Positions 29,438-44,869 of a DNA stretch of 64,000 nucleotides are shown one piece after another. The notes beneath the pieces are model-generated. The model was given only the letters and a program-made list of their open reading frames with translations, was not told the DNA's origin and did no database searches. Every line of letters begins with the position of its first letter. The first letter of the stretch is position 1. Source of the stretch: Pseudoxanthobacter soli DSM 19599 (GTDB taxonomy: Bacteria; Pseudomonadota; Alphaproteobacteria; Rhizobiales; Segnochrobactraceae); NCBI RefSeq assembly GCF_900148505.1, contig NZ_FRXO01000009.1, positions 1 to 64,000 of the forward strand, written 5' to 3'. The position numbers and the translations under genes were made by a program.

Positions 29438-30244
29438 CTATGGCTGCGGCTCAACCTGTTGCGGCTCGACCAGTTGTTCCTCGATCTTGCGCACGACCCG
29501 GCCCATCGCGCCGAGATAGCGCGCCGCCGCCGCTTCGATGCTCATGGCCGAGGCGAGATAGACGAGCCCGAGACAACCCATTAGCCCGGTTCCGCCGCGA
29601 ATGGGCAGGGCGAGGCCGGCCATCTTCGATTCGTCGGACCAGCTCATGTAATTCTGTCCATAGCCGCGCTCGACCACGCGGGCCAGCATGTCGTCGAGCG
29701 CCGCGCGGTCGCGGGCGAGCCGGTATTCGGGCTGCGGACGGCGGGCGAGCAGATCGATGATGCTGTCCCGCTCCGTCGCGGGGCAGAAGGCGAGATAGGC
29801 CGTGCCGCTCGCCGTCTGCAACATCGGCATCCGCCGCCCGATCATCGAGCGGTGGAACGACAATTTGCTGAAGCGGTGGGTCGTCTCGCGCACCACCATG
29901 GCATCGACGTCGAACGTGCAGAGGTCGGTCGGCCAGACCACCTCCTTCAGCAACTGCCCGAGCAGCGGCGAGGCGAGCGTGGAGATCCAGTGCTCGTCGC
30001 GGAAACCCTCGCTGAGTTCGCGGACCCGCAGGTCCAGGCAATAGCGCCCGTCTGATTCGCTCCGGCGCACATAGCCTTCGGCCTGAAGGGTCTCCAGCAG
30101 CCGCTGGACAGTGGTGCGGTGCAGCTTTGTCAGCTCCGCGAGGCGCCCGACGCTGGCGCCGCCATCGACGCGGTTGAGCGCGTTGAGCAGCGCAAGGCCG
30201 CGGCTGAGCCCGCGCACCATCTTGTAAGGGCTTTGTTCCGTCAT
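29438..30244 (-). CDS. mhpR: IclR-family regulator of the mhp operon
   Basis: A 268-residue IclR-type regulator. Residues about 8-70 form the winged HTH (VRGLSRGLALLNALNRVDGG, LTKLHRTTVQRLLETL, GYVRRSESDGRYCLD). The rest is the IclR effector domain, with TDLCTFDVDAMVVRETTH and GLALPIRGGTGLMGCLGLVYLASAM. It is divergent from mhpB, and the spacer contains a palindrome almost identical to the E. coli MhpR operator, so it is most likely the activator responding to 3-(3-hydroxyphenyl)propionate-like compounds. I chose ATG 30244; the longer open frame to 30457 crosses the operator and is not conserved in character. Confidence 0.88.
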   Translation of the reverse strand: MTEQSPYKMVRGLSRGLALLNALNRVDGGASVGRLAELTKLHRTTVQRLLETLQAEGYVRRSESDGRYCLDLRVRELSEGFRDEHWISTLASPLLGQLLKEVVWPTDLCTFDVDAMVVRETTHRFSKLSFHRSMIGRRMPMLQTASGTAYLAFCPATERDSIIDLLARRPQPEYRLARDRAALDDMLARVVERGYGQNYMSWSDESKMAGLALPIRGGTGLMGCLGLVYLASAMSIEAAAARYLGAMGRVVRKIEEQLVEPQQVEPQP

Positions 30245-30314
30245 CGCGCCCGAACTCCCAACCCGGCTCCCGCTCCGAAACGCCGCGATTCCGGTCGCGG
30301 CTTCGGCTTCCGGG

Positions 30315-30347: not shown

Positions 30348-30362
30348 GTGCACCAGGTGCAC
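30348..30362. promoter_or_regulatory. MhpR-type operator
   Basis: Perfect 7-bp palindrome GTGCACC-A-GGTGCAC. As I recall it, the E. coli MhpR operator is GGTGCACCTGGTGCACA; bases 30347-30363 match at 15 of 17 positions. A possible -10 hexamer TACACT is at 30404-30409, putting the operator about 60 bases before transcription starts, which suits an activator. Confidence 0.75.
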
Positions 30363-30500: not shown

Positions 30501-31442
30501 ATGACAATCAAGCTGAAGTGCCTTTCGCACACGCCTCTGCGTGGGCTCAACGATCCTGCTGCCGATGTCGTGGCGGAAGTTGACGCGGTGCTTGCCGCCG
30601 CCCGCGCGGATGTGGAGAAATTCGATCCGGAACTGATCGTCATCTTCGCGCCGGATCATTATAACGGGCTCTTCTACGATCTCATGCCGCCGTTCGTGAT
30701 CGCGACGCACGCGGACTCGGTCGGGGATTATCGGACGCTGTCCGGCCCCCTCTCCGTCGACCGTGAAATGGCGCAGGAGATGGCGGGCTTCATCCTCGAC
30801 CACGACGTCGACATCGCGCTCTCCCACCGCCTTCAGGTCGATCACGGCTGCACCCAGACCCTGGAAGAGCTGACAGGCAGCCTCACGCGCTATCCGGTCG
30901 TCCCGATCATCATCAATTCGGTCGCGCCGCCCTTCGCGCCCTATCGGCGGGTTCGCCGTCTCGGCGAGGTGGTGGGCCAGTTCATCGCGACGCTCGACAA
31001 GCGCGTGCTGATCGTGGGAACCGGCGGCCTTTCCCATGAGCCGCCCGTGCCGCTGCTCGACGGCGCCCCGGAGGCCGTCGGCGAATTCCTGATCTGCGGA
31101 CGCAATCCCACGCCGGAGGCGCGGGCCGCCCGGCAGGAGCGCACCATCGCCGCCGGCAAGATCTACGGCACGGCCCTTTCCGCGCAGACCCCTCTCAACG
31201 CCGAGTGGGATCAGGCCTTCATCGATCTGCTCCTCAGCGGGCGGCTCGAGGCCGTCGACGATTTCAGCATCGAGGACATCTCGGAGGAAGCGGGCCGCTC
31301 CACCCACGAGGTGCGCACCTGGGTCGCGGCGTTCGCCGCCCTCGCCGCCGCGCGCGGCCCTTACGAGGCCCGCCGCGACTATTACCGGCCGATCAACGAA
31401 TGGATCGCCGGCTACGGCGTCATGAGCGCCGAACCGCGCTGA
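30501..31442 (+). CDS. mhpB: 3-carboxyethylcatechol 2,3-dioxygenase (class III extradiol dioxygenase)
   Basis: Meta-cleaves 2,3-dihydroxyphenylpropionate, an Fe(II) enzyme of the LigB superfamily. The 313 residues are normal for MhpB. The histidine segments IFAPDHYNGLFYDLMPPF and IALSHRLQVDHGCTQTLEEL, and VPIIINSVAPPFAPYRR, LIVGTGGLSHEPP and the C-terminal RRDYYRPINEWIAGYG, are recognisable. GGGAG lies five bases before ATG 30501. It is the first gene of the mhp operon. The ring-opened product goes to MhpC. Confidence 0.93.
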   Translation: MTIKLKCLSHTPLRGLNDPAADVVAEVDAVLAAARADVEKFDPELIVIFAPDHYNGLFYDLMPPFVIATHADSVGDYRTLSGPLSVDREMAQEMAGFILDHDVDIALSHRLQVDHGCTQTLEELTGSLTRYPVVPIIINSVAPPFAPYRRVRRLGEVVGQFIATLDKRVLIVGTGGLSHEPPVPLLDGAPEAVGEFLICGRNPTPEARAARQERTIAAGKIYGTALSAQTPLNAEWDQAFIDLLLSGRLEAVDDFSIEDISEEAGRSTHEVRTWVAAFAALAAARGPYEARRDYYRPINEWIAGYGVMSAEPR

Positions 31443-31483: not shown

Positions 31484-32677
31484 ATGTTGGACAGACTGAA
31501 AACCACGCCCACCGAGGCGGAGATCGTCGCGCGCGCCGAAGCCATGATTCCGTGGCTGCGGGAGAAGGCCGATGCGGTCGAGAAGGCGCGCATGGTGCCG
31601 GCCGACACCATCGCGGCGTTCCAGGAAGCGGGGTTCTTCCGCATCCTGCAGCCGCGGCGCTGGGGAGGCTACGAAATGAGCCCCAACGTGCTCAACCGGG
31701 TGCTGATGGAACTCGGCCGCGGCTGCCCGTCGAGCGCCTGGAACGTCATGGTGCTCGGTGTCCATCCGTTCGAGGTGGGCCTGCTCGACCCGAAGTGCGG
31801 AGAGGAATTGTGGGGCGAGGATTCGAGCCGCCTGGTCTCCTCCTCCTACGCCCCGTTCGGCACGGTGAAGGCGGTCGAGGGCGGCTATCTCCTGAACGGC
31901 GACTGGCTGACGTCGAGCGGCTGCGACCACGCCTCGGGCGGCGCCTTCCTGGGCGGCCGCCTGAGCGAGAACGGCGAGATGGTGTTCCGCTCCTTCTGGG
32001 TCCAGGCGAGCGATTTCGAGATCGTGGACGACTGGTTCGTCGTCGGGCTGGCCGGCACGGGCAGCAAGAAGCTGGTGGTGAAGGACGCCTTCGTGCCGGC
32101 CTATCGCAGCCACGTCATCGCCGATTATGGCGAGAAGAGCCACGGACACGTCGACGACCTCTACAAGATGCCGTTCTTCTATGTGTTCTACGCCGCCGTC
32201 TCGTCGGTCATCGTCGGCATGGCGCGCGGCATGGTCGATCTCTACATCGAACACATGAAGCCGCGGCAGAACCTGAACCAGGCTGTCGGGGCCGCGGTGA
32301 ACGACCCGTTCATCAAGGCGCGTCTCGGCGAAGCGTCCGCGAAGATCCTCGGCGCCGCCACCCGCATCCTGCACAACACCGACGAGGCCTGGAGCTACGC
32401 CGCCCGCGGCGAACTCGTGCCGCTCGACGTTCGGGTTCGCCACTTCGCCACCAACCAGTTCACCGGGGGCGAGTGCTTCGACGCCGCGCACATGATCTTC
32501 AAGAAGACCTCGACGCGCGGGGTGTGGCTGAACAATCCGATGCAGCGCCAGCTCCGCGACATTCTCGTTGGCGCCAATCACATCACCCAGAACCAGGACA
32601 ATATCGGCGATCTTCTGGGCGGCCAGATGCTCGGCAATCCGATGCCCGCCGCCAATCCCTTCGGCGTGCGGCCGTGA
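31484..32677 (+). CDS. Two-component flavin-dependent aromatic hydroxylase, oxygenase component (HsaA-like)
   Basis: A 397-residue acyl-CoA-dehydrogenase-fold monooxygenase (group D flavoprotein). The closest family I recognise is HsaA, the steroid-ring phenol 4-hydroxylase. Shared blocks are [67 protein letters not shown] and the C-terminal [17 protein letters not shown]. It uses reduced flavin from its partner and oxygen to put a hydroxyl next to an existing phenol OH, giving a catechol. It sits where mhpA would be, directly before its flavin reductase (GTGA overlap), so it should make the catechol used by MhpB. GGAG is six bases before ATG 31484. The substrate is not proven. Confidence 0.85.
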
Positions 32678-33261
32678 ACGCCGAGATCGCCGCGGCGCGC
32701 GGCCACATCAACCAGCGGCTCGACTGGACGTCGAACGAACGGCTCGGCCTGCTGCCGACCGTTCGCGCCGAGGATCACCGGCTCGGGATGCGCCAGCTCG
32801 CCGCCGGCGTCTCCATCATCACCACCCGCTGCGGCGAAACCCCGGTCGGCCTCACCGCCACCGCGGTGTGTTCGGTGACGGTCGATCCGCCGCGGATGGT
32901 GGTGCTCGTCAACAAGAAGGTCGCCGCGGCGGATGCCATCCTCGCGAGCGGCGCGCTGTGCATCAACGTGCTGTCGGCGGAGCAGGCGCAGCTTGCCCGG
33001 GTCTTCGCCGGCATGGTCGAGGGCGTCCACGGTCCGGCCCGGTTCGATTACGGCCGGTGGGGAACCCGCGTCACCGGCGCGCCGGTGCTCGAAGGCGTGC
33101 TCGCGAGCTTCGATTGCCGGGTGATCAAAGTCTTCGACGAAAGCACGCACCACGCGCTTCTGTGCGACGTGCTCGACATCTCCGAGCCGCCGGGCGGAGA
33201 GCCCCTGATCTACGTGAACGGCACCTTCTGCCGCGTCAGCCCTCTGGAATCCTGCGAATGA
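32674..33261 (+). CDS. Flavin reductase component of the two-component hydroxylase
   Basis: A 195-residue NAD(P)H:flavin oxidoreductase of the HpaC/HsaB (flavin_reduct) family, which provides FMNH2 or FADH2 to the oxygenase. Visible are [44 protein letters not shown] (the flavin-binding region) and the terminal LIYVNGTF. About 35 residues precede the core domain, somewhat more than usual. It starts with GTG 32674 in a GTGA overlap with the oxygenase stop, and its own stop overlaps the mhpC start as ATGA. Translation of the three genes is therefore coupled. Confidence 0.88.
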
Positions 33262-34133
33262 GCGAAGTCTTCACCGAGGCGGCCACGAGCCGCTTCGTCC
33301 GCGTGCGCGAGGGCGCGGGCGACCTCAACATCCACTATAACGATTGCGATCCCGGCGACGCCCGGGAGACGGTGGTGATGCTGCACGGCTCGGGCCCCGG
33401 CGCGTCGGGGTGGGCCAATTTCAACCGCAATATCGAGCCGCTGACGGACGCGGGCTACCGCGTCGTCCTCGTCGACTGTCCCGGCTGGAGCAAGAGCGAC
33501 ACCATCGTCAGCACGGGGTCGCGCTCGAACCTCAACGCCCGCGTTCTTGCGGGCGTCGTCGATGCGCTGGAGCTCGACCGCGTCCACCTCGTCGGCAACT
33601 CCATGGGCGGCCACAGCGCGGTCGCCTTCGCGCTCGACCATCCTGCGCGGGTGGGCCGGCTGATCCTGATGGGCGGGGGCACCGGCGGCGCGAGCCCGTT
33701 CACGCCGATGCCGACAGAGGGCATCAAGCTCCTCAATGCCGTCTACCGCGCGCCCACCATCGAGAACCTGAAGGCGATGATGAACATCTTCGTCTTCGAT
33801 CCGGGCAGGCTCACCGAGGAGCTGTTCCAGGCGCGTCTCGAAAACATCCTGAAGCGCCGCGATCATCTGGAAAGCTTCGTCGAGAGCCTCGATCGCAACC
33901 CGAAGCAGTTCCCCGATTTCGGGTCGCGGCTCGCTGAGATCACGGCGCCGACGCTGGTCGTGTGGGGCCGCAACGACCGCTTCGTGCCGATGGACGCGGG
34001 GCTGCGCCTGATCGCGGGCATCCCGAATTCCGAACTCCACGTCTTCAACAATTGCGGCCACTGGGTGCAGTGGGAACACGCCGCGGCGTTCAACGCGCTG
34101 GTGCTCGGCTTCCTGGCAAGGGGGGCGGCATGA
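33258..34133 (+). CDS. mhpC: 2-hydroxy-6-oxonona-2,4-dienedioate hydrolase (MCP hydrolase)
   Basis: An alpha/beta hydrolase of 291 residues that cleaves the C-C bond of the meta-ring-fission product into 2-hydroxypenta-2,4-dienoate and an acid (succinate in the HPP pathway). The triad is visible: Ser115 in GNSMGGHSA, Asp240 in [11 protein letters not shown] and His268 in [12 protein letters not shown]. The oxyanion region is [11 protein letters not shown]. It has ATGA overlaps at both ends, with the flavin reductase and mhpD. Confidence 0.93.
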
Positions 34134-34936
34134 GCGCGGACCCCATCGCCGCCGCGGCAGACCGCCTTTACGAGGCGGCACGCACCGGCCATCCCTGCGA
34201 GCCGGTGCGCGACCTCATCGGCCTCGACCTCGATGCCGCCTATCGCGTCCAGTTCCTCAATACCCGGCGCGCCACCGAGGCCGGGCGACGGCTCGTCGGG
34301 CGCAAGATCGGCCTCACCTCCCGCGCGGTGCAGCAGCAGCTCGGCGTCGACCGGCCCGATTTCGGGGTGCTGTTCACCGACATGGAATATGGCGACGGCG
34401 AGGAGATCCCGTTCGACCGCCTGCTCCAGCCGAAGGCGGAGGCGGAGGTCGCCTTCGTCCTGAAGGCCGACGTGCTCGCCCCCGACGCGACCCCGACCGA
34501 GATCTGCCGGGCGGTGGATTATGTCGTCCCGGCGATCGAGATCGTCGGCAGCCGCGTCCGGAACTGGGACATCCGCATCTCCGACACCATCGCCGACAAC
34601 GCATCGAGCGGCTGCTACGTCGTGGGCGGGCCGCTGCGGCGCCTGGAGGGCCTGGATCTTCCGGCGCTCGGCATGACGCTCGCGCGCAACGGGGTCGCGG
34701 CGTCTCACGGCAACGGGGCCGCCTGCCTCGGCAATCCGATCAACGCGGTGGTCTGGCTCGCGCGCACCTGCGCCGCCCTCGACATGCCGCTGCGCGCCGG
34801 CGACGTGGTGCTGAGCGGTGCGCTCGGGCCGATGGTTCCGGTCGCCCCCGGCGACCGCCTCGAAGCCCGCATCGCCGGCCTCGGTGCCGTGACCGTGTCG
34901 ATCGGCGCGGCCGCTCTTTCGGAGAAAGCCCCATGA
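34130..34936 (+). CDS. mhpD: 2-keto-4-pentenoate hydratase
   Basis: Hydrates 2-hydroxypenta-2,4-dienoate to 4-hydroxy-2-oxovalerate with a divalent metal. It has 268 residues and the fumarylacetoacetase-like fold. [29 protein letters not shown] and [15 protein letters not shown] (acidic metal ligands) are the family motifs, with [25 protein letters not shown] following. It starts in an ATGA overlap with mhpC and ends in one with mhpF. Confidence 0.93.
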
Positions 34937-35880
34937 CGACGCGTAAACTGAAAGCGGCGATCATCGGGTCGGGGAATATCGGCACCGACCTGATGATCAA
35001 GATCATGCGGATGTCGCGGCACCTCGAAATGGGCGCCATGGTCGGCATCGATCCCAATTCCGACGGTCTCGCCCGCGCGGCGCGCCTCGGCGTGCCGGTG
35101 ACGCACGAGGGCATCGCCGGCCTCACCCGCCTGCCCCATTACCGCGACATCGCCGTGGTGTTCGACGCGACCTCGGCCAAGGCGCACATCGCCAACAACG
35201 CGGTGCTGCAGAAGGACGGCAAGAAGGTCATCGATCTCACGCCGGCGGCGATCGGGCCGTTCACGATCCCGGCGGTCAACGGCGAGGCGAGCCTCGACGC
35301 GCCGAACATCAACATGGTGACCTGCGGCGGCCAGGCGACCATTCCGATGGTGTATGCGGTGCGCCGCGCCACCGACCGCGTGATCTGGGGCGAGATCGTC
35401 GCCTCGATCTCCTCGCGCTCGGCCGGACCCGGCACCCGCGCCAACATCGACGAATTCACCGAGACGACGTCGAAGGCGATCGAGGTGCTCGGCGGCGCCG
35501 AACGGGGCAAGGCGGTCATCATCCTGAACCCGGCCGAGCCGCCCCTCATCATGCGCGACACGGTCTTCACCCTCAGCCAGGGCGGCGACCGCGACGCCAT
35601 CGAGGCCTCCATCCTCGACATGGTGGAAACCGTCCGCGCCTACGTGCCGGGCTACCGGCTCAAGCAGCGGGTGCAGTTCGAAACCGTCGGCGACAATGCG
35701 CCGGTGCGGATTCCGGGCTTCGGCCCCGCGACCGGGCTGAAGACGACGATCATGCTCGAGGTCGAGGGCGCCGCGCATTATCTGCCGGCCTATGCCGGCA
35801 ATCTCGACATCATGACCTCCGCCGCCCTGGTCTCCGCCGACCGGTGGGCGGGACGGATCCTTGCGAAGGACGCCGCGTGA
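34933..35880 (+). CDS. mhpF: Acetaldehyde dehydrogenase (acylating)
   Basis: Converts acetaldehyde, NAD+ and CoA to acetyl-CoA; it works as a channelling complex with the aldolase MhpE. The protein has 315 residues, the usual length. The NAD-binding motif IGSGNIGTD is at residues 11-19 and the catalytic cysteine is Cys131 in [16 protein letters not shown]. The stop overlaps the mhpE start by one base (TGATG), in keeping with a stoichiometric complex. Confidence 0.95.
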
Positions 35881-36914
35881 TGGCCCGACCCGACAAGACC
35901 AAACTCTACGTCCAGGACGTGACCCTGCGCGACGGCATGCACGCGGTCCGCCACCAGTACGATCTCGCGACCACGAGGGCGATCGCCCGCGCGCTCGACC
36001 GGGCCAGGGTCGATGCCATCGAGATCAGCCACGGCGACGGCCTCAGCGGCGCGACCTTCAATTACGGCTTCGGCGCCCACGGCGACGCCGAATGGATCGC
36101 CGCCGTGGCCGGGGAATGCAGCCATGCCGTCGTCACGGTGCTGCTGCTGCCCGGCATCGGCACGGTGCACGACCTGAAGGCCGCCTACGATGCCGGCGCG
36201 CGCTCGGTGCGCGTCGCCACCCATTGCACCGAGGCCGACGTGTCGCGCCAGCACATTGAGGCGGCGCGCGCCCTCGGCATGGATACCGCGACCTTCCTGA
36301 TGATGGCGCACATGATCCCGCCCGAGGCGCTGGCGGAGCAGGCGAAGCTGATGGAGAGCTACGGGGCGGAATGCGTCTACGTAACGGATTCCGCCGGCGC
36401 CCTGCTGCCGGAGGACTACACCGCCCGGGTGCGGGCGCTGCGCGACGCGCTGAAGCCCGAGACGGAGATCGGCGTCCATACCCACCACAATCTCACCCTC
36501 GGGGTGGCGAACGCCGTCGCCGGGATCGAGGCCGGCGCCGTCCGCGTCGACGCCTCCCTCGCCGGCATGGGTGCCGGCGCCGGCAACGCGCCGCTCGAAG
36601 CGCTCGTCGCCGTGCTGAAGCGCAAGGGCCTCGAAACCGGCTGCGACCTCAACGCGCTGATGGATGCCGCCGACGATCTCGTCCGTCCGCTCCAGGACCG
36701 GCCGGTGCGGGTGGACCGGGAAAGCCTCTCGCTCGGCTATGCCGGGGTCTATTCGAGCTTCCTGCGCCATGCCGAGAACGCCTCCGCGCTCTACGGCGTC
36801 GATACCCGCGACATCCTCGCCGAACTCGGCCGCCGCCGCATGGTCGGCGGACAGGAGGACATGATCGTCGACGTCGCTCTCGACCTCGCCGCGCGCAGGG
36901 ACGCGGCGGCCTGA
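35880..36914 (+). CDS. mhpE: 4-hydroxy-2-oxovalerate aldolase
   Basis: Splits 4-hydroxy-2-oxovalerate to pyruvate and acetaldehyde, a metal-dependent class II aldolase of 344 residues in the HMG-CoA-lyase-like TIM-barrel family. The motif [13 protein letters not shown] (Arg17, Asp18, His21) starts the barrel. The metal histidines are in [17 protein letters not shown], and the C-terminal DmpG-type communication domain follows from about residue 275. It is the last enzyme gene of the operon. The transporter gene follows after 130 bases. Confidence 0.95.
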
Positions 36915-37044: not shown

Positions 37045-38247
37045 GTGACGAAGGCGATGAAAGCGCCCGCCGCAAGCGGGCGCGTGCTCCTGTACGTATT
37101 TCTGGCGGCCATCATCGAAGGGTTCGACCTTCAGGCCGCCGGCATCGCCGCGCCCAAGATCGGGCCGGCGTTCAGCATGTCGCCGCAGCAGATGGGGCTG
37201 TTCTTCTCGTCGGCGACGTTCGGCCTGATGTTCGGCGCGCTCGCCGGCGGCTACGCGGCCGATCGCTGGGGCCGGCGCGCGGGATTGACGTTCGCCCTCG
37301 GGGCGTTCGGCTTCGCCTCGATCGCGACCGTGCTTGCGACATCGGTCGAATCCCTGATCGTGCTGCGTTTCATCACCGGCCTCGGTCTCGGCGGCGCGCT
37401 GCCGAACCTCGTCTCCATCGCCGCCGAGGCGGTGGGACCGGAGCGCAAGGGGCGCGCGGTGGCGCTGATGTATGCCGGCATGCCGCTCGGGGCGGCGGTC
37501 GCGAGCCTCGTCGCCCTGCTCGGCTTCCATGGCGGGGACTGGCGGTCGATCTTCCTCGTCGGCGGATTGCTGCCGCTGCTGCTGGTGCCGTTCATCTATC
37601 TCGGCCTGCCGGCGATGAAGATCACCCGGGGCGCGAACGCGCCGAAGATGCCGTGGACCGTGGTGTTCCGGCGCGACGCCATGGCGGCGACGCTGCTGCT
37701 CTGGAGCGCGTTCTTCCTCGGCCTCCTCGTCGTCTATCTCCTGATGAACTGGCTGCCGCAATTGCTGGTGGCGCAGGGCTTCTCCCGGGACGAGGCGTCG
37801 CTCGCGCTCATCCTCTACAGCCTCGGCGGCGCCGTCGGCAGCCTGCTCGGCGGGCGCGTGCTCGACAGCGCCCACCGCGTCGCGGCCATCGCCGCGAGCT
37901 TCGCCTTCGTCGCGGCGATCCTCGCGCTGCTCGGCGTTCTCACGCCGGCCCTCTCCACCATGCTCGCGACGGTGACGCTCGCCGGCATCGGCGTTCTCTG
38001 CGTCCAGTCGATCCTCTACGGGATCGCGCCGCAATGCTATCCGGCCGAGATCCGGGGCACCGGCGTCGGCGTGGTGGTGGCGGTCGGACGGCTCGGATCG
38101 ATGGTCGGCCCGCTGCTCGCGGGCCTGCTCGTCGCCCAGGGCAGCACGCCGAGCGGCATCATGCTGGTGCTCGTGCCGATCATCCTCGCCTGCGGCATCG
38201 GCACGCTCGCCCTCGTCGCCGCCCGCTTCCGCCCGGTCCTTGCGTGA
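37045..38247 (+). CDS. mhpT: MFS aromatic acid:H+ symporter (MhpT-like)
   Basis: A 400-residue transporter with 12 membrane helices, of the aromatic acid:H+ symporter (AAHS) branch. IIEGFDLQAAGIAAPKI in helix 1 holds the conserved Asp; GYAADRWGRRAG is the loop 2-3 motif, and PAEIRGTGVGVVVAVGRLGSM is the second-half counterpart. It probably imports 3-hydroxyphenylpropionate or a related phenol acid for this operon. It starts with GTG 37045, with GGAGG at a spacing of eight. The stop codon lies inside a 16-bp tandem repeat. Confidence 0.9.
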   Translation: MTKAMKAPAASGRVLLYVFLAAIIEGFDLQAAGIAAPKIGPAFSMSPQQMGLFFSSATFGLMFGALAGGYAADRWGRRAGLTFALGAFGFASIATVLATSVESLIVLRFITGLGLGGALPNLVSIAAEAVGPERKGRAVALMYAGMPLGAAVASLVALLGFHGGDWRSIFLVGGLLPLLLVPFIYLGLPAMKITRGANAPKMPWTVVFRRDAMAATLLLWSAFFLGLLVVYLLMNWLPQLLVAQGFSRDEASLALILYSLGGAVGSLLGGRVLDSAHRVAAIAASFAFVAAILALLGVLTPALSTMLATVTLAGIGVLCVQSILYGIAPQCYPAEIRGTGVGVVVAVGRLGSMVGPLLAGLLVAQGSTPSGIMLVLVPIILACGIGTLALVAARFRPVLA

Positions 38248-38424: not shown

Positions 38425-39351
38425 TCACGGCGCCATTCTGCGGATGGCGTCCGGAACGTCATATCCCCAAGTGCCGTAAATCCGGGCGATCACCTCCGCC
38501 ATCAAGGCGATCTCGGGGGAGTGGTCGCCGACGCGAACGCTCATGATGATCGGCGACGTGGGGCGTTCGACGAGATCGCGGTAGCACACCCCCTCCACCT
38601 GGAAGGTGCGGACCGATTCCGGGACGATGGCGATGCCCTCCTCCGCCGCGACGAGGCCGATCGCGATCTGGAGCTCGCGGGCTTCGTGGCCGATGCGCAC
38701 GGCGACGCCGTGATCGTGGAGAAGCCGCAGAACCTGATCGGCATAGCTCGGGCGCGGCTGACGGGGATAGAGCACCACCGGCTGGCCCTCGAAGTCCTGC
38801 AACGACAGCGCCCCCTCCTTCAGCGCGAGCGGATGACCGGCCGGGATGGCGGCGATCAGGCGCTCCTGGCGCAGCACGATCCGCCGCACGGCGTCGTCCT
38901 CGAAGCTGATCCGGCCGAAGCCGACATCGATGCGGCCCTCCTTGAGGGCACTGATCTGCTCCAGCGTGACGAGTTCGACGAGGGAGAGATCGAGATTGTG
39001 CGTGGATGCGCGGAAATCGCGGATGATCTGCGGCAGACGGGCAAAGATGGTCGAGGCGACGAAGCCGATCGCGAAGCGGCGGCGTTCGGCGACGACGGCC
39101 CGGCCCACCATCTCCCGCATTTCGGCGACCCGGCCGAGCACCTGGGACGCCTGTTCGAGCACCAGCCGGCCGATGGGCGTGAGCTGCAGGGGGCGCGCGG
39201 CGCGGTCGAACAAAGGGGCGCCGATTTCGGCCTCGAGCTGCTGGATCTGCCGGCTGAGCGGCGGCTGGGCGATGTTGAGCCGCGCCGCCGCGCGGGTCAC
39301 GTTCCGCTCCTCGGCGACGGTCACGAAATAACGGAGCTGCCGCAGGTCCAT
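38425..39351 (-). CDS. LysR-family regulator of the cat-ben operon (CatR/CatM/BenM-like)
   Basis: A 308-residue LysR regulator. The N-terminal HTH is MDLRQLRYFVTVAEERNVTRAAARLNIAQ followed by PPLSRQIQQLE (first part MDLRQLRYFVTVAEE); the effector domain runs from about residue 90. It is divergent from catB and its spacer holds the ATAC-N7-GTAT palindrome that BenM, CatM and CatR use, with muconate (and for BenM benzoate) as inducer. ATG 39351 has GGAGG five bases upstream, favouring it over the ATG at 39363 or 39405. That ribosome-binding site is next to the palindrome, so autorepression is likely. Confidence 0.9.
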   Translation of the reverse strand: MDLRQLRYFVTVAEERNVTRAAARLNIAQPPLSRQIQQLEAEIGAPLFDRAARPLQLTPIGRLVLEQASQVLGRVAEMREMVGRAVVAERRRFAIGFVASTIFARLPQIIRDFRASTHNLDLSLVELVTLEQISALKEGRIDVGFGRISFEDDAVRRIVLRQERLIAAIPAGHPLALKEGALSLQDFEGQPVVLYPRQPRPSYADQVLRLLHDHGVAVRIGHEARELQIAIGLVAAEEGIAIVPESVRTFQVEGVCYRDLVERPTSPIIMSVRVGDHSPEIALMAEVIARIYGTWGYDVPDAIRRMAP

Positions 39352-39357
39352 CGCTGC

Positions 39358-39380
39358 CTCCATACCCTTTAGGTATGGAG
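39358..39380. promoter_or_regulatory. LysR operator, ATAC-N7-GTAT type
   Basis: Perfect 9-bp arms CTCCATACC (39358-39366) and GGTATGGAG (39372-39380) around CTTTA. Its core, ATAC (39362-39365) N7 GTAT (39373-39376), is the BenM/CatM recognition sequence. It lies just upstream of the LysR start and about 90 bases before catB. Confidence 0.8.
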
Positions 39381-39469
39381 TACGGACCCAATCGGTCTTT
39401 GGCAAGGGCAGGCCGCGCCCGTAAGGTTGCGGTCAGAACAGCCAAAACCCCGATACCGAGACGGTTCCC

Positions 39470-40687
39470 GTGCCCGACGCCATCACCCTCGCTTCGATCG
39501 AAACGCTCATCGTCGATCTGCCGACGATCCGGCCCCATGTGCTGGCGATGGCGACGATGCACCGGCAATCGATCGTGCTGGTGCGCCTGCGCGGTTCCGA
39601 CGGGATCGAAGGCATCGGCGAAGGCACGACGATCGGCGGCCTGAGCTACGGCGACGAGAGCCCGGAAGGCATCAAGCTCGCGATCGATACCTATATCGTT
39701 CCGGTGCTGCGCGGATGCGATCTCGGACGGATCACGGCGACGATGGCGGCGATCGGCCGCCACGTGAAGGGCAACGTCATCGCCAAGTGCGCGGTCGAAA
39801 CGGCGCTGATCGATGCGCTCGGCAAGCGTCTCGGCCTGCCGGCGTCGCACCTGATCGGCGGCGGCCCGGTGCGCGACCGGCTGCCCGTCGCCTGGACGCT
39901 GGCGAGCGGCGACACGGGGCGAGACATCGCGGAGGCCGAGGCCATGCTCGACGCCCGCCGCCACGACATCTTCAAGCTGAAGATCGGCAAGCGTGCCGTG
40001 CGGGAAGACGTGGCGCACGTCGCCGCCATCAAGCGCGCCCTGGGCGACCGGGCGAGCGTGCGCGTCGACGTCAACCAGGGCTGGAACGAAACCGACGCCG
40101 ATCTCGGCATGGCGCTGCTTCAGGACGCCGGCATCGACCTTGTCGAGCAGCCCGTTTCGCGCCGCGCCCGCGCCGCGCAGGCCCGCCTTTCCGCCCGCCA
40201 CCGCATCCCGATCATGGCGGACGAATCCCTCGGCGGCGCGGCGGAGGCGTTCGATGTCGCGGCGTCGGGCGCGGCGCGGGTGTTCTCGGTCAAGATCGCG
40301 CAATCTGGCGGCCTCCATGCCGCGCACGCCGTCGCCACCATCGCGGGTGCCGCGGGCATCGGCCTCTACGGCGGCACGATGCTGGAAGCCGGCGTGGGCA
40401 CCGCGGCCTCCGCCCATCTGTTCGCGAGCCTGTCGACACTCGATTGGGGCACCGAGCTGTTCGGCCCGCTGCTGCTGACCGACGAGATTCTGGCGGAGCC
40501 CCTCACCTACCGGGATTTCGCCCTCGACGTCCCGACCGGTCCCGGCCTCGGGGTGGTGCTCGACGAGGACAAGGTCGCGCATTACCGGCGCGACCGCACC
40601 GCCCCCAATCTTCATGTGGTGGAGACGAGCACGGATGCTCTTCAAAGTGGAAATGGACATCACCATCCCGCCCGGGTTCGATCCTGA
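39470..40687 (+). CDS. catB: Muconate cycloisomerase
   Basis: Cyclises cis,cis-muconate to muconolactone. It belongs to the enolase superfamily: the Lys-x-Lys pair is Lys169/Lys171 in FKLKIGK, and the metal ligands are Asp200 (VDVNQGW), Glu226 (LVEQP) and Asp251 (ADESL). The start is GTG 39470, with only a weak GAG upstream. The frame gives 405 residues, some 30 more than usual. The extra tail after HYRRDRTAPNLHVV has no family look and overlaps catC by 53 bases. Chloromuconate enzymes are similar, but the surrounding cat and ben genes favour muconate. Confidence 0.92.
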   Translation: MPDAITLASIETLIVDLPTIRPHVLAMATMHRQSIVLVRLRGSDGIEGIGEGTTIGGLSYGDESPEGIKLAIDTYIVPVLRGCDLGRITATMAAIGRHVKGNVIAKCAVETALIDALGKRLGLPASHLIGGGPVRDRLPVAWTLASGDTGRDIAEAEAMLDARRHDIFKLKIGKRAVREDVAHVAAIKRALGDRASVRVDVNQGWNETDADLGMALLQDAGIDLVEQPVSRRARAAQARLSARHRIPIMADESLGGAAEAFDVAASGAARVFSVKIAQSGGLHAAHAVATIAGAAGIGLYGGTMLEAGVGTAASAHLFASLSTLDWGTELFGPLLLTDEILAEPLTYRDFALDVPTGPGLGVVLDEDKVAHYRRDRTAPNLHVVETSTDALQSGNGHHHPARVRS

Positions 40688-40925
40688 CGGGCTGGACCGG
40701 CTCAAGGCGGCGGAGAAGGCGCGCTTCCAGGAGCTTCAGCGCGCCGGAACCTGGCGGCACATCTGGCGGGTGGTCGGCCGCTACGCGAACGTCAGCATCT
40801 TCGATGTCGAGAGCAACGCGCACTTGCACGACATCCTGACCACCCTGCCGCTCTACCCCCTCATGACGATCACGGTGACGGCACTCTGCCGCCATCCCTC
40901 GACCATCCACGACGACGACCGCTGA
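40635..40925 (+). CDS. catC: Muconolactone delta-isomerase
   Basis: A 96-residue ferredoxin-like-fold isomerase that turns muconolactone into 3-oxoadipate enol-lactone. It opens [17 protein letters not shown] and holds [21 protein letters not shown] and [17 protein letters not shown], as in all CatC proteins. ATG 40635 lies inside the catB frame, and GGAG is ten bases before it. The long overlap with catB suggests coupled translation. Confidence 0.95.
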
Positions 40926-40963
40926 AAGCGGCCGCGCGCACAACGATAAACGGAGGAAATCCC

Positions 40964-41860
40964 ATGAACGAAGGCTTCGTGAAGACCCCGGAGATCCAGG
41001 CCCTGCTCGACCGCGTTGCCGGTGTCGGCGTCCCCGACGGCAACGCGCGGGCGAAGGCCATCGTCCGCGATCTCGTCGAGCATCTCATGGTTCTCGTCGC
41101 CCGCTACGAGATCAGCGAGGACGAGGTCTGGCAGGCGGTGAACTTCCTTCAGAAGGGCGCGGGCGAGTTCGGCCTCATCATGCCGGGCATCGGCCTCGAG
41201 CATTTCATCGACCTCTATCTCGACGCCCGCGACGCCGAGGCCGGCAAGATCGGCGGCACGCCGCGCACCATCGAAGGCCCGCTTTATGTCGCCGGGGCGC
41301 CGCTGGTCGACACCGGAGCGAACCTGACCCAGGACCCGGACGACACCACCACGCTCTACATGACCGGCCGCATCTTCGGGCCGGACGGCGAGGCGGTGAA
41401 GGACGCCATCGTCCACGTCTGGCATGCGAACTCGAAGGGCTTCTACTCGCACTTCGATCCGACCGGCGAGCAGACCCCGTTCAACAACCGCCGCCGGCTG
41501 CGGGCGGCCGAGGACGGAACCTATTCCTTCCATTCGAAGATGCCGAAGGGCTACTCGGTGCCGCCGAACGGCGCCACCGACCAGCTGATGCAGCTTCTCG
41601 GCCGGCACGGCAACCGTCCCGCCCACGTCCATTTCTTCATCGAGGCGCCGGGCTATCGCCGTCTGACGACGCAGATCAATTTCGGCGACGATCCCTTCGC
41701 CAAGGACGATTTCGCGTTCGGGACCCGCGAGGGCCTGCTGCCGGTGCCGAACCGCCAGGGCGACAGCGCCCACGTCGCATTCGACTTCCATCTGCAGCGT
41801 GCCGACAGCGGCGACGACGAGCGCTTCTCGGCCCGCGAACGCCTCAGCGTCGCCGCCTGA
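40964..41860 (+). CDS. catA: Catechol 1,2-dioxygenase
   Basis: Ortho-cleaves catechol to cis,cis-muconate. It is a 298-residue Fe(III) intradiol dioxygenase. Residues 1-100 form the helical dimer linker and the rest the beta-sandwich. The four iron ligands are all visible: Tyr161 (GFYSHFD), Tyr197 (PKGYSVPP), His221 and His223 (RPAHVHFF). GGAGGAAA precedes ATG 40964. It sits between catC (38 bases) and benA (20 bases), so it is in one transcript with both. Confidence 0.96.
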
Positions 41861-41880
41861 GCCGGACGGGGGGACGGCCG

Positions 41881-43269
41881 ATGACCATGGACGCGCTTCG
41901 CCAACGCATCGAAGGCGCGGTTGTGGACGATCCCGACGGCGGCACCTTCCGCTGTCGCCGGGACGTCTTCACCGACCCGGAGATCTTCGCGCTCGAGATG
42001 GAGCACATCTTCGAGGGAAACTGGGTCTATCTCGCCCACGAGAGCCAGATCCCCGAGCCGAACGACTATTACACGACCAGCATCGGCCGGACGCCGATCC
42101 TCATCACGCGCGGCAAGGACGGCGAGCTCCACGCCTTCATCAACGCCTGCGCCCATCGCGGCGCCACGCTGTGCCGCCGCAAGCACGGCAACAAGGGCAG
42201 CTTCACCTGTCCGTTCCACGGCTGGACCTTCAGCAACGCGGGCAAGCTGCTGAAGGTGAAGGATGCCAGGACCGGCGGCTATCCCGAGAGCTTCGACGTC
42301 GACGGATCGCACGACCTGACCCCGCTCGCCCGGTTCGCGGACTATCGCGGCTTCCTTTTCGGCAGCCTGAGAAGCGACGTCGAACCGCTCGAAGACCATC
42401 TCGGCGGCACCCGCGTCATCATCGACCAGATCGTCGATCAGGCGCCGGACGGCATCGAAGTGCTGCGCGGCAACTCGTCCTACGTCTTCGACGGCAACTG
42501 GAAGCTCCAGATCGAGAACGGTGCCGACGGCTATCACGTCAGCACCGTGCACTGGAACTATTCGGCGACGATGGGACGGCGCAACTATGCCGAAGAGGGC
42601 ACGAGGACCGTCGACGCCAACGGATGGTCGAAGAGCGTCGGAGGCGTCTATGCGTTCGAGCACGGCCATATCCTGCTGTGGACCCGGCTGCTGAACCCCG
42701 AGGTTCGGCCGATCCACGGGCATCGGGAAGCCCTGGCGGCCCGGGTCGGGGACGAGCGCGCCGCGTTCATCGTCGGCCAGACGCGCAATCTCTGCCTCTA
42801 TCCCAACGTCTATCTGATGGATCAGTTTTCCACCCAGATCCGGGTGGTGCGCCCCATCAGCGTCGACCGGACCGAGGTCACGATCTTCTGCTTCGCCCCG
42901 AAGAACGAAAGCGCCGAGGACCGACGCCTGCGCATTCGCCAGTACGAGGATTTCTTCAACGTCAGCGGCATGGGGACGCCCGACGATCTGGAGGAGTTCC
43001 GGGCCTGCCAGACGGCCTACGCGGGGGCGGGCGCGTTGTGGAACGATCTCAGCCGCGGCGCGACGCGCTGGATCGACGGCCCCGACGACAATGCGCGGGC
43101 CATGGGCCTGAAGCCGCTGCTGAGCGGCGAACGCAGCGAGGACGAAGGGCTGTTCCTGCGTCAGCACGAATACTGGGCACAGGCGCTGATCGCCGGCCTC
43201 GAGCGGGGCGGTGGAGACGACGGAGCGGCCGCCGCTCCGTGCGCCGAGGAAGGGAGGGACGCGGCATGA
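41881..43269 (+). CDS. benA: Benzoate 1,2-dioxygenase, large (alpha) subunit
   Basis: Catalytic subunit of the ring-hydroxylating dioxygenase that makes benzoate cis-1,2-dihydrodiol. The 462 residues are normal for BenA/XylX. The Rieske ligands are Cys90, His92 (NACAHRG), Cys110 and His113 (CPFHGW). The mononuclear iron site holds His219 and His224 in [15 protein letters not shown]. The [19 protein letters not shown] segment is typical of the benzoate/toluate group. The linked benD and cat genes favour benzoate over toluate. It ends in an ATGA overlap with benB. Confidence 0.94.
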
Positions 43270-43817
43270 GTTCCGCACATGCCAGGTCAGTACCTGCCGG
43301 GTCAGTATCCGCCGGGCCGGTCGCTGCCGCGACGCCCGATCGCGAGACGGTGCTCGCCTTCCTTCATCGCGAGGCGCGCCTGCTGGACGATCGGGAATGG
43401 GACGAATGGCTGACGTGCTATTCGCCGCGTGCGACGTTCTGGATGCCGAGCTGGGACGACGACGACCGGCTGGTCGAGGATCCGCAGCGTCACGTCTCGC
43501 TGATCTATTATCCCAACCGGGAAGGACTCGAGGATCGGGTCTTTCGCATCAAGACCGAACGCTCCGGCGCGAGCACGCCGGAGCCGCGCACCGTCCACAT
43601 GATCGCGAATGTCGAGATGCTGGCCACCCGCGCCGGCGAGATCGATGTCCGCTTCAACTGGCACACCCTCAGCCATCGCTACATGAAGACGGACCACTTC
43701 TTCGGGACGTCCTTCTATACGCTCGATGTGACCGGTGAGAGCCCCTTGATCTCGGCGAAGAAGGTCGTTCTGAAGAACGACTACATCCGTCAGGTCATCG
43801 ACGTCTATCACATCTGA
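43266..43817 (+). CDS. benB: Benzoate 1,2-dioxygenase, small (beta) subunit
   Basis: The structural beta subunit (183 residues, NTF2-like fold) of the alpha3beta3 dioxygenase. Core motifs are [35 protein letters not shown] and [11 protein letters not shown]. The N-terminus carries an unusual low-complexity extension made of three five-residue units ([15 protein letters not shown]) encoded by 15-bp repeats. ATG 43266 overlaps the benA stop. Confidence 0.93.
43285..43329 (+). repeat. benB: 15-bp in-frame tandem repeats in benB
   Basis: GGTCAGTACCTGCCG (43285-43299), GGTCAGTATCCGCCG (43300-43314) and GGCCGGTCGCTGCCG (43315-43329). They are multiples of three and so only lengthen the BenB N-terminus. 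Confidence 0.75.
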
Positions 43818-43846
43818 GCCGCGATACGGCCCGCAAGAGGCTTCGC

Positions 43847-44869
43847 ATGACCTATCGCATCGCACTGAATTTCGAAGACGGAGTGACCCGCTTCATTGAA
43901 TGCGGCGAGGGCGAGAGCGTCCTCGACGCCGCCTACCGCCACAAGATCAATCTGCCGATGGATTGTTCCGACGGGGTGTGCGGGACCTGCAAATGCCGGT
44001 GCGAATCCGGCAGCTACGACCTCGGCGCGGATTTTCTGGAGGAGGCGCTGACGGCGGACGAGGCGGGCGACCGCCTCGTCCTGACCTGCCAGATGAGGGT
44101 GAAGTCCGATTGCGTGATCTCGGTGCCGGTGCCCTCGTCGGCCTCCAAGGTGAAGCCGGTCGAGCATTGGGCGACCGTCCGGGCGGTCGACCGGGTGTCG
44201 GAGAGCGCCCTGGTGCTGCGCATCGCGCCCGACGACGCCCGCGCGCTGGACTTCCTGCCCGGCCAGTATGTGAACCTCTTCGTACCCGGCACGACCGAAC
44301 ACCGCGCCTATTCGTTCAGCTCCAAGCCCGGGGCGGCGGAGGCGAGCTTCCTCATCCGCAACGTGCCGGGCGGAAGGATGAGCCGCTGGCTTGCGGGCGG
44401 CCCGCGGGCGGGCGAGCGGATGCGCATGATCGGGCCGCAGGGGAGCTTCTTCCTGCGCGAGGTCGAGAGGCCCGTCCTGATGCTGGCCGGCGGCACCGGC
44501 CTCGCGCCTCTGCTGTCGATGCTGGAGGTGCTTGCCGACCGCGGCACGGATCAGCCGATCCGTCTTCTCTACGGCGTCACCGCGGACGTCGATCTCGTCG
44601 AGACGACGCGGATCGCGGCAATCGCCGCCCGGCTGCCGACGCTGACCTACACCTTCTGCGTGGTCGACCCCGGCAGCGCGTGTCCGCGCAAGGGATACGT
44701 CACCGATCATCTCGGTGACGAGGACCTCCATGGCGGCGACTGCGATATCTATCTCTGCGGTCCGCCGGTCATGGTCGAAAGCGTGCGCCGCTTCCTGCAC
44801 GACAAGGCGCTGGTTCCGGCGCGCTTCCTCTACGAGAAGTTCGTCGCCACGGAGGCCGTGCCCGCATGA
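43847..44869 (+). CDS. benC: Benzoate 1,2-dioxygenase NADH reductase
   Basis: The electron-transfer component, 340 residues. A plant-type 2Fe-2S ferredoxin domain at the N-terminus has Cys40, Cys45, Cys48 (CSDGVCGTC) and Cys81. An FAD-binding domain follows with RAYSFSSKP, then an NAD domain with MLAGGTGLAPLLSMLEVL and the CGPPVMV motif. It passes electrons from NADH to the BenAB Rieske centre. It starts 29 bases after benB and ends in an ATGA overlap with benD. Confidence 0.95.
   Translation: MTYRIALNFEDGVTRFIECGEGESVLDAAYRHKINLPMDCSDGVCGTCKCRCESGSYDLGADFLEEALTADEAGDRLVLTCQMRVKSDCVISVPVPSSASKVKPVEHWATVRAVDRVSESALVLRIAPDDARALDFLPGQYVNLFVPGTTEHRAYSFSSKPGAAEASFLIRNVPGGRMSRWLAGGPRAGERMRMIGPQGSFFLREVERPVLMLAGGTGLAPLLSMLEVLADRGTDQPIRLLYGVTADVDLVETTRIAAIAARLPTLTYTFCVVDPGSACPRKGYVTDHLGDEDLHGGDCDIYLCGPPVMVESVRRFLHDKALVPARFLYEKFVATEAVPA

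Follow-up and report, generated by a model that had tools for sequence, protein, structure and literature searches.

Organisation of the locus

The 64,000-nucleotide stretch of DNA analysed in this study (hereafter, the window) comes from Pseudoxanthobacter soli DSM 19599 and carries an operon related to the mhp meta-cleavage operon of Escherichia coli K-12, from which the gene for the single-component flavin adenine dinucleotide (FAD) hydroxylase MhpA is missing and in which a pair of genes, predicted to encode an oxygenase and a flavin reductase, stands between mhpB and mhpC (Table 1). The source genome comprises 5.16 Mb across 27 contigs, and homologues of MhpB, C, D, F, E and T and of MhpR are all found in this single locus, as judged by NCBIfam models and identities to the E. 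coli proteins. The regulator gene lies on the minus strand, facing an array of mhpB-oxygenase-reductase-mhpC-mhpD-mhpF-mhpE, and mhpT follows 130 bp further on. MhpR, MhpB, MhpF and MhpE score over the cut-offs of their own best NCBIfam equivalog models, whereas MhpD, MhpT and MhpC score under them. The oxygenase and reductase genes overlap by GTGA (32674-32677), the reductase gene and mhpC by ATGA (33258-33261), mhpC and mhpD as well as mhpD and mhpF by ATGA each, and mhpF and mhpE by GTGA if the GTG start of mhpE at 35877 is used; given that start, 4-bp overlaps join every pair of neighbours from the oxygenase gene to mhpE. No MhpA-like gene is present among the translations of the operon, and the 21 FAD_binding_3 matches of the genome all lie on other contigs. 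A preliminary description of this DNA, made from the sequence alone, had proposed an mhp operon without mhpA, whose oxygenase-reductase pair is tied into the pathway by four-base overlaps, and the coordinates, NCBIfam scores and translations agree with it on both counts.

Table 1. Genes and sites of the mhp operon in the window.
Feature	Position	Strand	Evidence
IclR-family regulator, MhpR type	29438..30253	-	NF007341 327.6 bits (cut-off 269); 63% to E. coli MhpR
MhpR-operator-like palindrome GTGCACCAGGTGCAC	30348..30362	.	153 bp before mhpB; MhpR binding predicted
mhpB, class III (LigB) extradiol dioxygenase, cassette-linked clade	30501..31442	+	NF009908 556.5 bits (cut-off 467); LigB Pfam match
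oxygenase component, two-component flavin monooxygenase (predicted), acyl-CoA dehydrogenase fold	31484..32677	+	ATG start; Acyl-CoA_dh_2
flavin reductase component (predicted)	32674..33261	+	GTG start; Flavin_Reduct
mhpC, C-C hydrolase	33258..34133	+	ATG start 33258; 72% to E. coli MhpC; best NCBIfam model BphD 358.5 bits (cut-off 462)
mhpD, 2-hydroxypentadienoate hydratase	34130..34936	+	NF008461 347.6 bits, below cut-off 350; 55% to E. coli MhpD
mhpF, acylating acetaldehyde dehydrogenase	34933..35880	+	TIGR03215 449.3 bits (cut-off 282.25); 67% to E. coli MhpF
mhpE, 4-hydroxy-2-oxovalerate aldolase	35877..36914 (GTG 35877 or ATG 35880)	+	TIGR03217 556.6 bits (cut-off 286); 70% to E. coli MhpE
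mhpT-like major facilitator superfamily (MFS) transporter	37045..38247	+	NF008586 388.2 bits, below cut-off 410; 44% to fetched part of E. coli MhpT

The oxygenase and reductase pair

The only Pfam domain found in the oxygenase at E<=1e-5 is PF08028 (Acyl-CoA_dh_2, C-terminal; 78.8 bits vs a threshold of 22.7), and the single-component fold typical of MhpA (PF01494, FAD_binding_3) gave no match at this limit. The best NCBIfam model is HsaA (NF045629), at 312.7 bits vs a cut-off of 450, followed by the C2-type p-hydroxyphenylacetate hydroxylase (C2-HPAH), at 202.6 bits vs a cut-off of 650; over the aligned parts, Rhodococcus HsaA is 37% and C2-HPAH 28% identical to it, and three HsaA motif blocks were found that align with those of HsaA. 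An AlphaFold2 model built from a 34-row alignment (mean predicted local distance difference test score 88.9, predicted template modelling score 0.91) matches HsaA (2rfq; Z 48.5, 2.1 A, 379 residues) and C2-HPAH (2jbr; Z 47.8, 2.4 A, 380 residues) in what amounts to a tie, and the displayed Foldseek and VIA-align rows all come from the same superfamily. Passages of two papers on C2-HPAH describe His120 and Ser146 as holding the phenol, Ser171 as stabilising the C4a-hydroperoxyflavin and His396 as a possible proton relay (PMC10696468, PMC10537072). These residues correspond to H94, S120, S145 and H366 of the oxygenase and are invariant in all 53 rows of its clade. The fold, the partner reductase and the His/Ser/Ser/His set are the traits of a two-component group D flavin monooxygenase, and such an activity is predicted for the pair. 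In the alignment, which was also inspected for an arginine that might bind the side-chain carboxylate, several positions are basic throughout the clade (R79, R159, R169, K340 and K341 among them) and carry non-basic residues in C2, in Rhodococcus HsaA and in the product of Tsukamurella hsaA.

The relationship with HsaA was examined in a tree of 75 rows (71 translations from loci, i.e. 72 less L085, together with the window and three PDB pieces), for which the program flagged long branches, and deeper relations are not claimed. The window's oxygenase, its 51 close orthologues and the copy from a genome of the same family form a clade of 53 rows with support of 100/99, separate from HsaA, the two HsaA rows of which form a fork of their own (100/98). 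The oxygenase is a relative of HsaA and not HsaA itself, because it scores below the NF045629 cut-off and falls in its own clade. The HsaA-like character given to it in the preliminary description holds for the motif blocks and the acyl-CoA dehydrogenase fold and stops short of identity with HsaA, and the phylogeny against the HsaA group that the same description had suggested places the oxygenase outside the HsaA fork. The nearest outgroup is a plasmid-borne oxygenase of Diaphorobacter HDW4B (L093; 45.5% identity), which joins the clade at 99/100 and, unlike the window's, adjoins a VOC-family gene and not a LigB gene. Novosphingobium (L087, L088) has two oxygenase-like stretches with about 1.6 kb between them, each sharing 28-29% identity with the window's oxygenase; the match at L087 8001-9230 contains an internal stop.

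The reductase is recognised by Flavin_Reduct (PF01613, 119.3 bits), and its NCBIfam scores, all below cut-off, are 129 bits for RutF, 108 for HpaC and 91 for HsaB. It is a predicted flavin reductase, for which the earlier label of HsaB-like is loose, as RutF and HpaC score above HsaB.

Compared with HsaAB, the 3-HSA 4-hydroxylase of Rhodococcus RHA1 that acts on a steroid-derived phenol, the pair shares the fold, the motif blocks, the His/Ser/Ser/His site and the level of identity given above; unlike HsaAB, it is joined to a class III dioxygenase and stands in a genome with no HsaC over cut-off. Compared with C2 of p-hydroxyphenylacetate 3-hydroxylase from Acinetobacter baumannii (2jbr/2jbt), it shares the fold and retains F266 in addition to H120, S146, S171 and H396, but is 28% identical in sequence and has Phe in place of R263.

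Conservation of the mhpB-oxygenase-reductase cassette

A scan of genome contigs for the oxygenase returned 60 loci, 51 of them at 74-92% identity (L032-L082) and nine at 25-37%. The 51 close orthologues are distributed over the Alpha-, Beta- and Gammaproteobacteria. Gene order at these loci is not a product of chance, because mhpB stands directly upstream of the oxygenase gene in 49 of the 51, the exceptions being L058, where none was found, and L073, where it lies downstream; both of these belong to the oxygenase clade. The same gene order, proposed at the outset as something to look for in other genomes, is thus present in many. The reductase gene lies downstream of the oxygenase gene in 50 of the 51 loci (it was not detected in L082), every mhpB present is 69-89% identical to that of the window, and MhpC is found at an identity of at least 60% in 24 loci. 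Within the source genome's own order, two of 397 sampled genomes match at E<=1e-100, namely the source genome itself and one genome of the same family (94%). In the latter, the mhpB match (L023 520-1385) is split over two frames (87% and 92%), and this copy may be frameshifted or mis-sequenced. Beside the two Alcaligenaceae loci lies an FAD hydroxylase (L058 9163-10908, L073 14767-16536), with a GntR-like regulator recognised by eye; the L073 copy is 26% identical to E. coli MhpA, and a 66% homologue lies beside an mhp cluster at L165 2-1117.

The dioxygenase encoded upstream of the pair is equally distinctive. Three surveys for MhpB, of 199, 369 and 298 genomes, gave matches in 15, 5 and 33 of them, respectively, and the gene neighbourhood was inspected at 57 different places. 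The oxygenase is adjacent in all 17 places whose MhpB shares 76% or more identity with that of the window (these overlap the 51-locus set, 13 being in genomes already there and four new) and in none of the other 40, whose MhpB reaches at most 56% (33 at 42-56% among the 50 places checked first, and seven later). A tree of 65 MhpB rows, made by a quick method without bootstrap and with outside rows that come solely from the Dechloromonas hortensis family and from E. coli, puts the 52 MhpBs of cassette loci on one side of a branch (Shimodaira-Hasegawa-like approximate likelihood ratio test 100) and four MhpA-linked ones on the other, with nine rows ungrouped. Asp114, His115, His179 and Pro181, which we take to be active-site residues of MhpB, are kept in 52 of 52 rows.

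These results indicate that mhpB, the oxygenase gene and the reductase gene form a cassette set on an ordinary mhp backbone. The window proteins are 47% identical to those of E. coli K-12 for MhpB and 72%, 63%, 70% and 67% identical for MhpC, MhpR, MhpE and MhpF, respectively; in a comparison with 17 mhp loci (L137-L153) from the Azotobacter vinelandii family, MhpB is 49-53% and MhpC 71-79% identical. Such a mosaic of low MhpB and high MhpC identity is not readily given by uniform descent and would fit the replacement of mhpA and mhpB by an mhpB-oxygenase-reductase block. The operon of E. coli (mhpRABCDFET; L092) shares with the window the type of regulator, the operator palindrome, the order C-D-F-E-T and MhpC, MhpF and MhpE at 67-72%, whereas the window lacks MhpA, has its divergent mhpB as the first gene of the operon and carries a two-component hydroxylase of another fold. 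That MhpB diverges along with the hydroxylase, and that the cassette is widespread, go beyond what was first described.

Regulator and predicted operator

The operator motif of E. coli MhpR is given as GGTGCACCTGGTGCACA in Table 1 of PMC8222616, and we found this site in the E. coli K-12 intergenic region. The palindrome upstream of mhpB in the window is the sole match to TGCACCNGGTGCA within 64 kb, even when up to one mismatch is allowed; the expected number was 0.11, and one or more matches turned up in 10 of 100 shuffles. Among the 51 orthologue loci, only L032 and L034 carry the strict form GCACCNGGTGC at the mhpB promoter. When each of the 52 loci was scanned with the 15-mer of the window, 38 did better than their own shuffled versions at the 0.05 level, and the other 14 fell short. 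A relaxed core, GTGCAY-N3-RTGCAC, lies in the 400 bp before mhpB at 34 of the 52 loci, a count that is not a blind test as the core was picked after inspecting the 15-mer scan; the other 778 kb of these loci contain 18 such sites, vs 20.5 kb of upstream DNA examined. The MhpR-type regulator would switch the operon at a site of the GTGCAC-N3-GTGCAC type, and passages of PMC11237407 report that MhpR binds phenylpropionate, 3-hydroxyphenylpropionate (3-HPP) and 2,3-dihydroxyphenylpropionate (DHPP).

MhpA in cassette genomes

We searched 32 cassette genomes, drawn from those of the 51 loci, with E. coli MhpA as the query. No match at E<=1e-50 was obtained in 22 of the 32, and no MhpA above 50% identity in 29. 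The earlier proposal that a non-orthologous hydroxylase takes the place of MhpA and is tied into the pathway is strengthened by this distribution. In the family of Azotobacter vinelandii, clusters of the mhpB-C-D-F-E type (L154-L170) have MhpC 65-79% identical to the window's, and no E. coli-type MhpA was found in the fetched stretches of these loci.

Proposed function and alternative explanations

The cassette, its conservation, the clades, the residues and the operator-like site are features of the sequences themselves, and from them we infer the reaction, its regiochemistry, its regulation and its substrate. It is very likely that the pair performs some hydroxylation feeding MhpB. We further propose, with good though lesser confidence, that it carries out the first hydroxylation in a meta-cleavage pathway of the mhp type, as a non-homologous replacement of MhpA, and its substrate is probably 3-HPP or 3-hydroxycinnamate. 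HsaA hydroxylates 3-HSA between the hydroxyl group and a -CH2-CH2- side chain, a geometry that 3-HPP shares. In the proposed mechanism, the reductase would reduce free flavin with NAD(P)H, and the oxygenase would take up the reduced flavin and form a C4a-hydroperoxyflavin held by Ser145, with His366 as a proton relay. His94 and Ser120 would hold the phenol, and one oxygen atom would enter at the ortho position that separates the hydroxyl group from the side chain. The product, DHPP (or 2,3-dihydroxycinnamate), would then be cut by the co-inherited MhpB, and MhpC would hydrolyse the ring-fission product to succinate (or fumarate) and 2-hydroxypentadienoate, after which MhpD, MhpF and MhpE would complete the pathway. 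The close similarity of MhpC to E. coli MhpC and to the 17 loci of the Azotobacter vinelandii family points to a succinate-yielding product. On balance, the evidence also leans towards a second, non-homologous family of 3-HPP hydroxylases, encoded in a three-gene cassette that would have moved, together with a distinct MhpB clade, across the Alpha-, Beta- and Gammaproteobacteria, on at least two downstream backbones and with an MhpR-type operator retained.

Several observations weigh against this proposal. By the test of at least 60% identity, 27 of the 51 loci are without mhpC (several are short contigs), loci of the Dechloromonas and Azonexus type have more distant D/F/E genes, and in one Dechloromonas locus (L064) the gene between the reductase gene and mhpD encodes a periplasmic binding protein (Peripla_BP_6, 9808-10941). 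Of the 52 loci, 18 lack the relaxed operator core ahead of mhpB. Among the 33 other mhpB loci, eight have an E. coli-type MhpA at a distance of up to 1.5 kb and 25 do not; extending the view of those 25 to about 8 kb either side (less at contig ends) added none, and two of the seven further MhpB places without the oxygenase have MhpA. Thus, a missing adjacent mhpA is by itself not special among mhp clusters, and one cluster of this kind takes part in coumarin degradation (PMC13181038). MhpA relatives at E<=1e-50 do occur in 10 of the 32 cassette genomes: Zoogloea dura, Azohydromonas lata and Burkholderia sp. lig30 have MhpA above 50% identity within separate mhpA-mhpB clusters (L185-L187), Amphritea atlantica has a relative at 39%, and the remaining six genomes have relatives at 29-37%. 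The carboxylate-binding Arg263 of C2-HPAH is replaced by Phe232 in all 53 rows, so that a propionate would have to be held in some other way; MhpB is only 47% identical to that of E. coli, and its catechol may therefore differ. Finally, the source genome itself encodes, on contig C1, one protein over the cut-off of the MhpA subfamily NF004829 (482.5 vs 390 bits).

This last protein could be taken as the real 3-HPP hydroxylase feeding the operon, with the pair as a passenger. However, it is 29% identical to E. coli MhpA, its neighbours (L016 10959-16867, at about 991-997 kb) encode a VOC dioxygenase, an FAH-family hydrolase, an amidohydrolase-family protein and, by eye, an MFS transporter, which make up a second aromatic cluster with it, and the two LigB matches of the genome lie elsewhere. 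Together with the 22 genomes without an MhpA match and the four catalytic residues kept in every oxygenase row, this makes a passenger role very unlikely. An mhpA gene elsewhere, named in the preliminary description as the finding that would overturn its interpretation, is thus present in name only, and we think it unlikely that MhpA acts from elsewhere as the sole hydroxylase. Still less probable is a steroid ring-A hydroxylase, the true function of HsaA, located by chance in an mhp operon. HsaA does provide the closest solved structures by sequence and fold, but the score, the tree position and the LigB-type partner speak against it (the hsaA plasmid locus L095 instead carries hsaC and hsaD), and no HsaC over cut-off was found in the genome, the best match reaching 43.3 bits vs 450 (other steroid genes were not searched for). 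We reject this explanation on the cut-off, the tree and HsaC. The related suggestion of a phenol bulkier than 3-HPP is not borne out either, in view of MhpC, the MhpR-type regulator with its operator and the lack of HsaC over cut-off.

The main rival, which we judge unlikely, concerns the substrate: the pair may hydroxylate melilotate, the coumarin-derived 3-(2-hydroxyphenyl)propionate, at its C3 and thereby give the same DHPP, with the product and all downstream enzymes identical. Coumarin breakdown in Pseudomonas NyZ480 runs into an mhpBCDEFRT cluster, with the unlinked couC also essential, according to passages of PMC13181038, and PMC2907700 designates OhpB of Rhodococcus as a 3-(2-hydroxyphenyl)propionate monooxygenase. 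On the other side, the regulator and operator match those of MhpR, whose listed ligands (PMC11237407) are phenylpropionate, 3-HPP and DHPP. HsaA, the nearest characterised relative, takes a phenol with its side chain meta to the hydroxyl group, as in 3-HPP. It is rather unlikely, too, that the pair takes as its substrate a related phenol with a meta substituent (of another chain length, a hydroxylated phenylpropanoid or a flavonoid fragment) and that the mhp enzymes tolerate the altered product. The separate clade of MhpB, with identities of 42-56% to the remaining MhpB homologues of the surveys and of 47% to E. coli MhpB, and the lack of an Arg263 equivalent would suit such a substrate, and HcdB, functionally similar but a type I dioxygenase, serves a trihydroxyphenylpropionate pathway in Pseudomonas mandelii (passages of PMC6222606); MhpC, at 72% to E. 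coli and 71-79% to the 17 Azotobacter vinelandii family loci, argues for the usual product.

Neighbouring genes

Directly downstream of the operon, at 38425-44869, a LysR regulator and catB-, catC-, catA- and benA/benB/benC-like genes were recognised by eye from their translations, and we read them as an ortho-cleavage benzoate/catechol cluster adjoining the meta-cleavage mhp operon. In addition to the gene in L064, periplasmic binding proteins were seen by eye near the cassette at L061 617-1750, L045 6512-7645 and L062 5058-6197, and permease-like genes, also recognised by eye, adjoin in L061, L064 and L045. These genes could possibly form an ATP-binding cassette (ABC) uptake system in place of MhpT.

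Relation to known systems and significance

HsaA-type two-component phenol hydroxylases and mhp operons are each already known, and it is their combination that the comparisons made here leave well supported as a conserved module. Passages of published work describe a metagenomic biphenyl cluster with HsaA- and HsaD-like genes and no HsaC (PMC8552027) and the IppA1A2 pair for 2-isopropylphenol, whose oxygenase is 32% identical to HsaA (PMC12442392). In Dechloromonas aromatica RCB, only one of six mhp-like clusters is reported to have an mhpA-like gene (PMC2907700), and the passages of that paper name no two-component hydroxylase as a substitute for MhpA; the cassette occurs in Dechloromonas loci L063-L065. 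Neither a two-component 3-HPP hydroxylase nor such a pair linked with MhpB appears among the matches listed in our literature search, a weak negative as most subscription journals were outside its scope.

If our proposal is true, the cassette would account for at least some of the mhp clusters described without mhpA, and genomes with the cassette would be scored as missing the first step of 3-HPP degradation when MhpA alone is sought. The operator and the conserved residues make the proposal directly testable in E. coli. The cassette would represent a natural swap of a one-component for a two-component flavin hydroxylase plus the next enzyme of the pathway, in which the regulator, the operator and the remaining pathway stay in place. 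Many soil and water bacteria seem to start the breakdown of a plant-derived phenol, most likely 3-HPP, by means of a two-protein flavin oxygenase that is accompanied by an MhpB of its own and replaces the unrelated single-component MhpA of E. coli.

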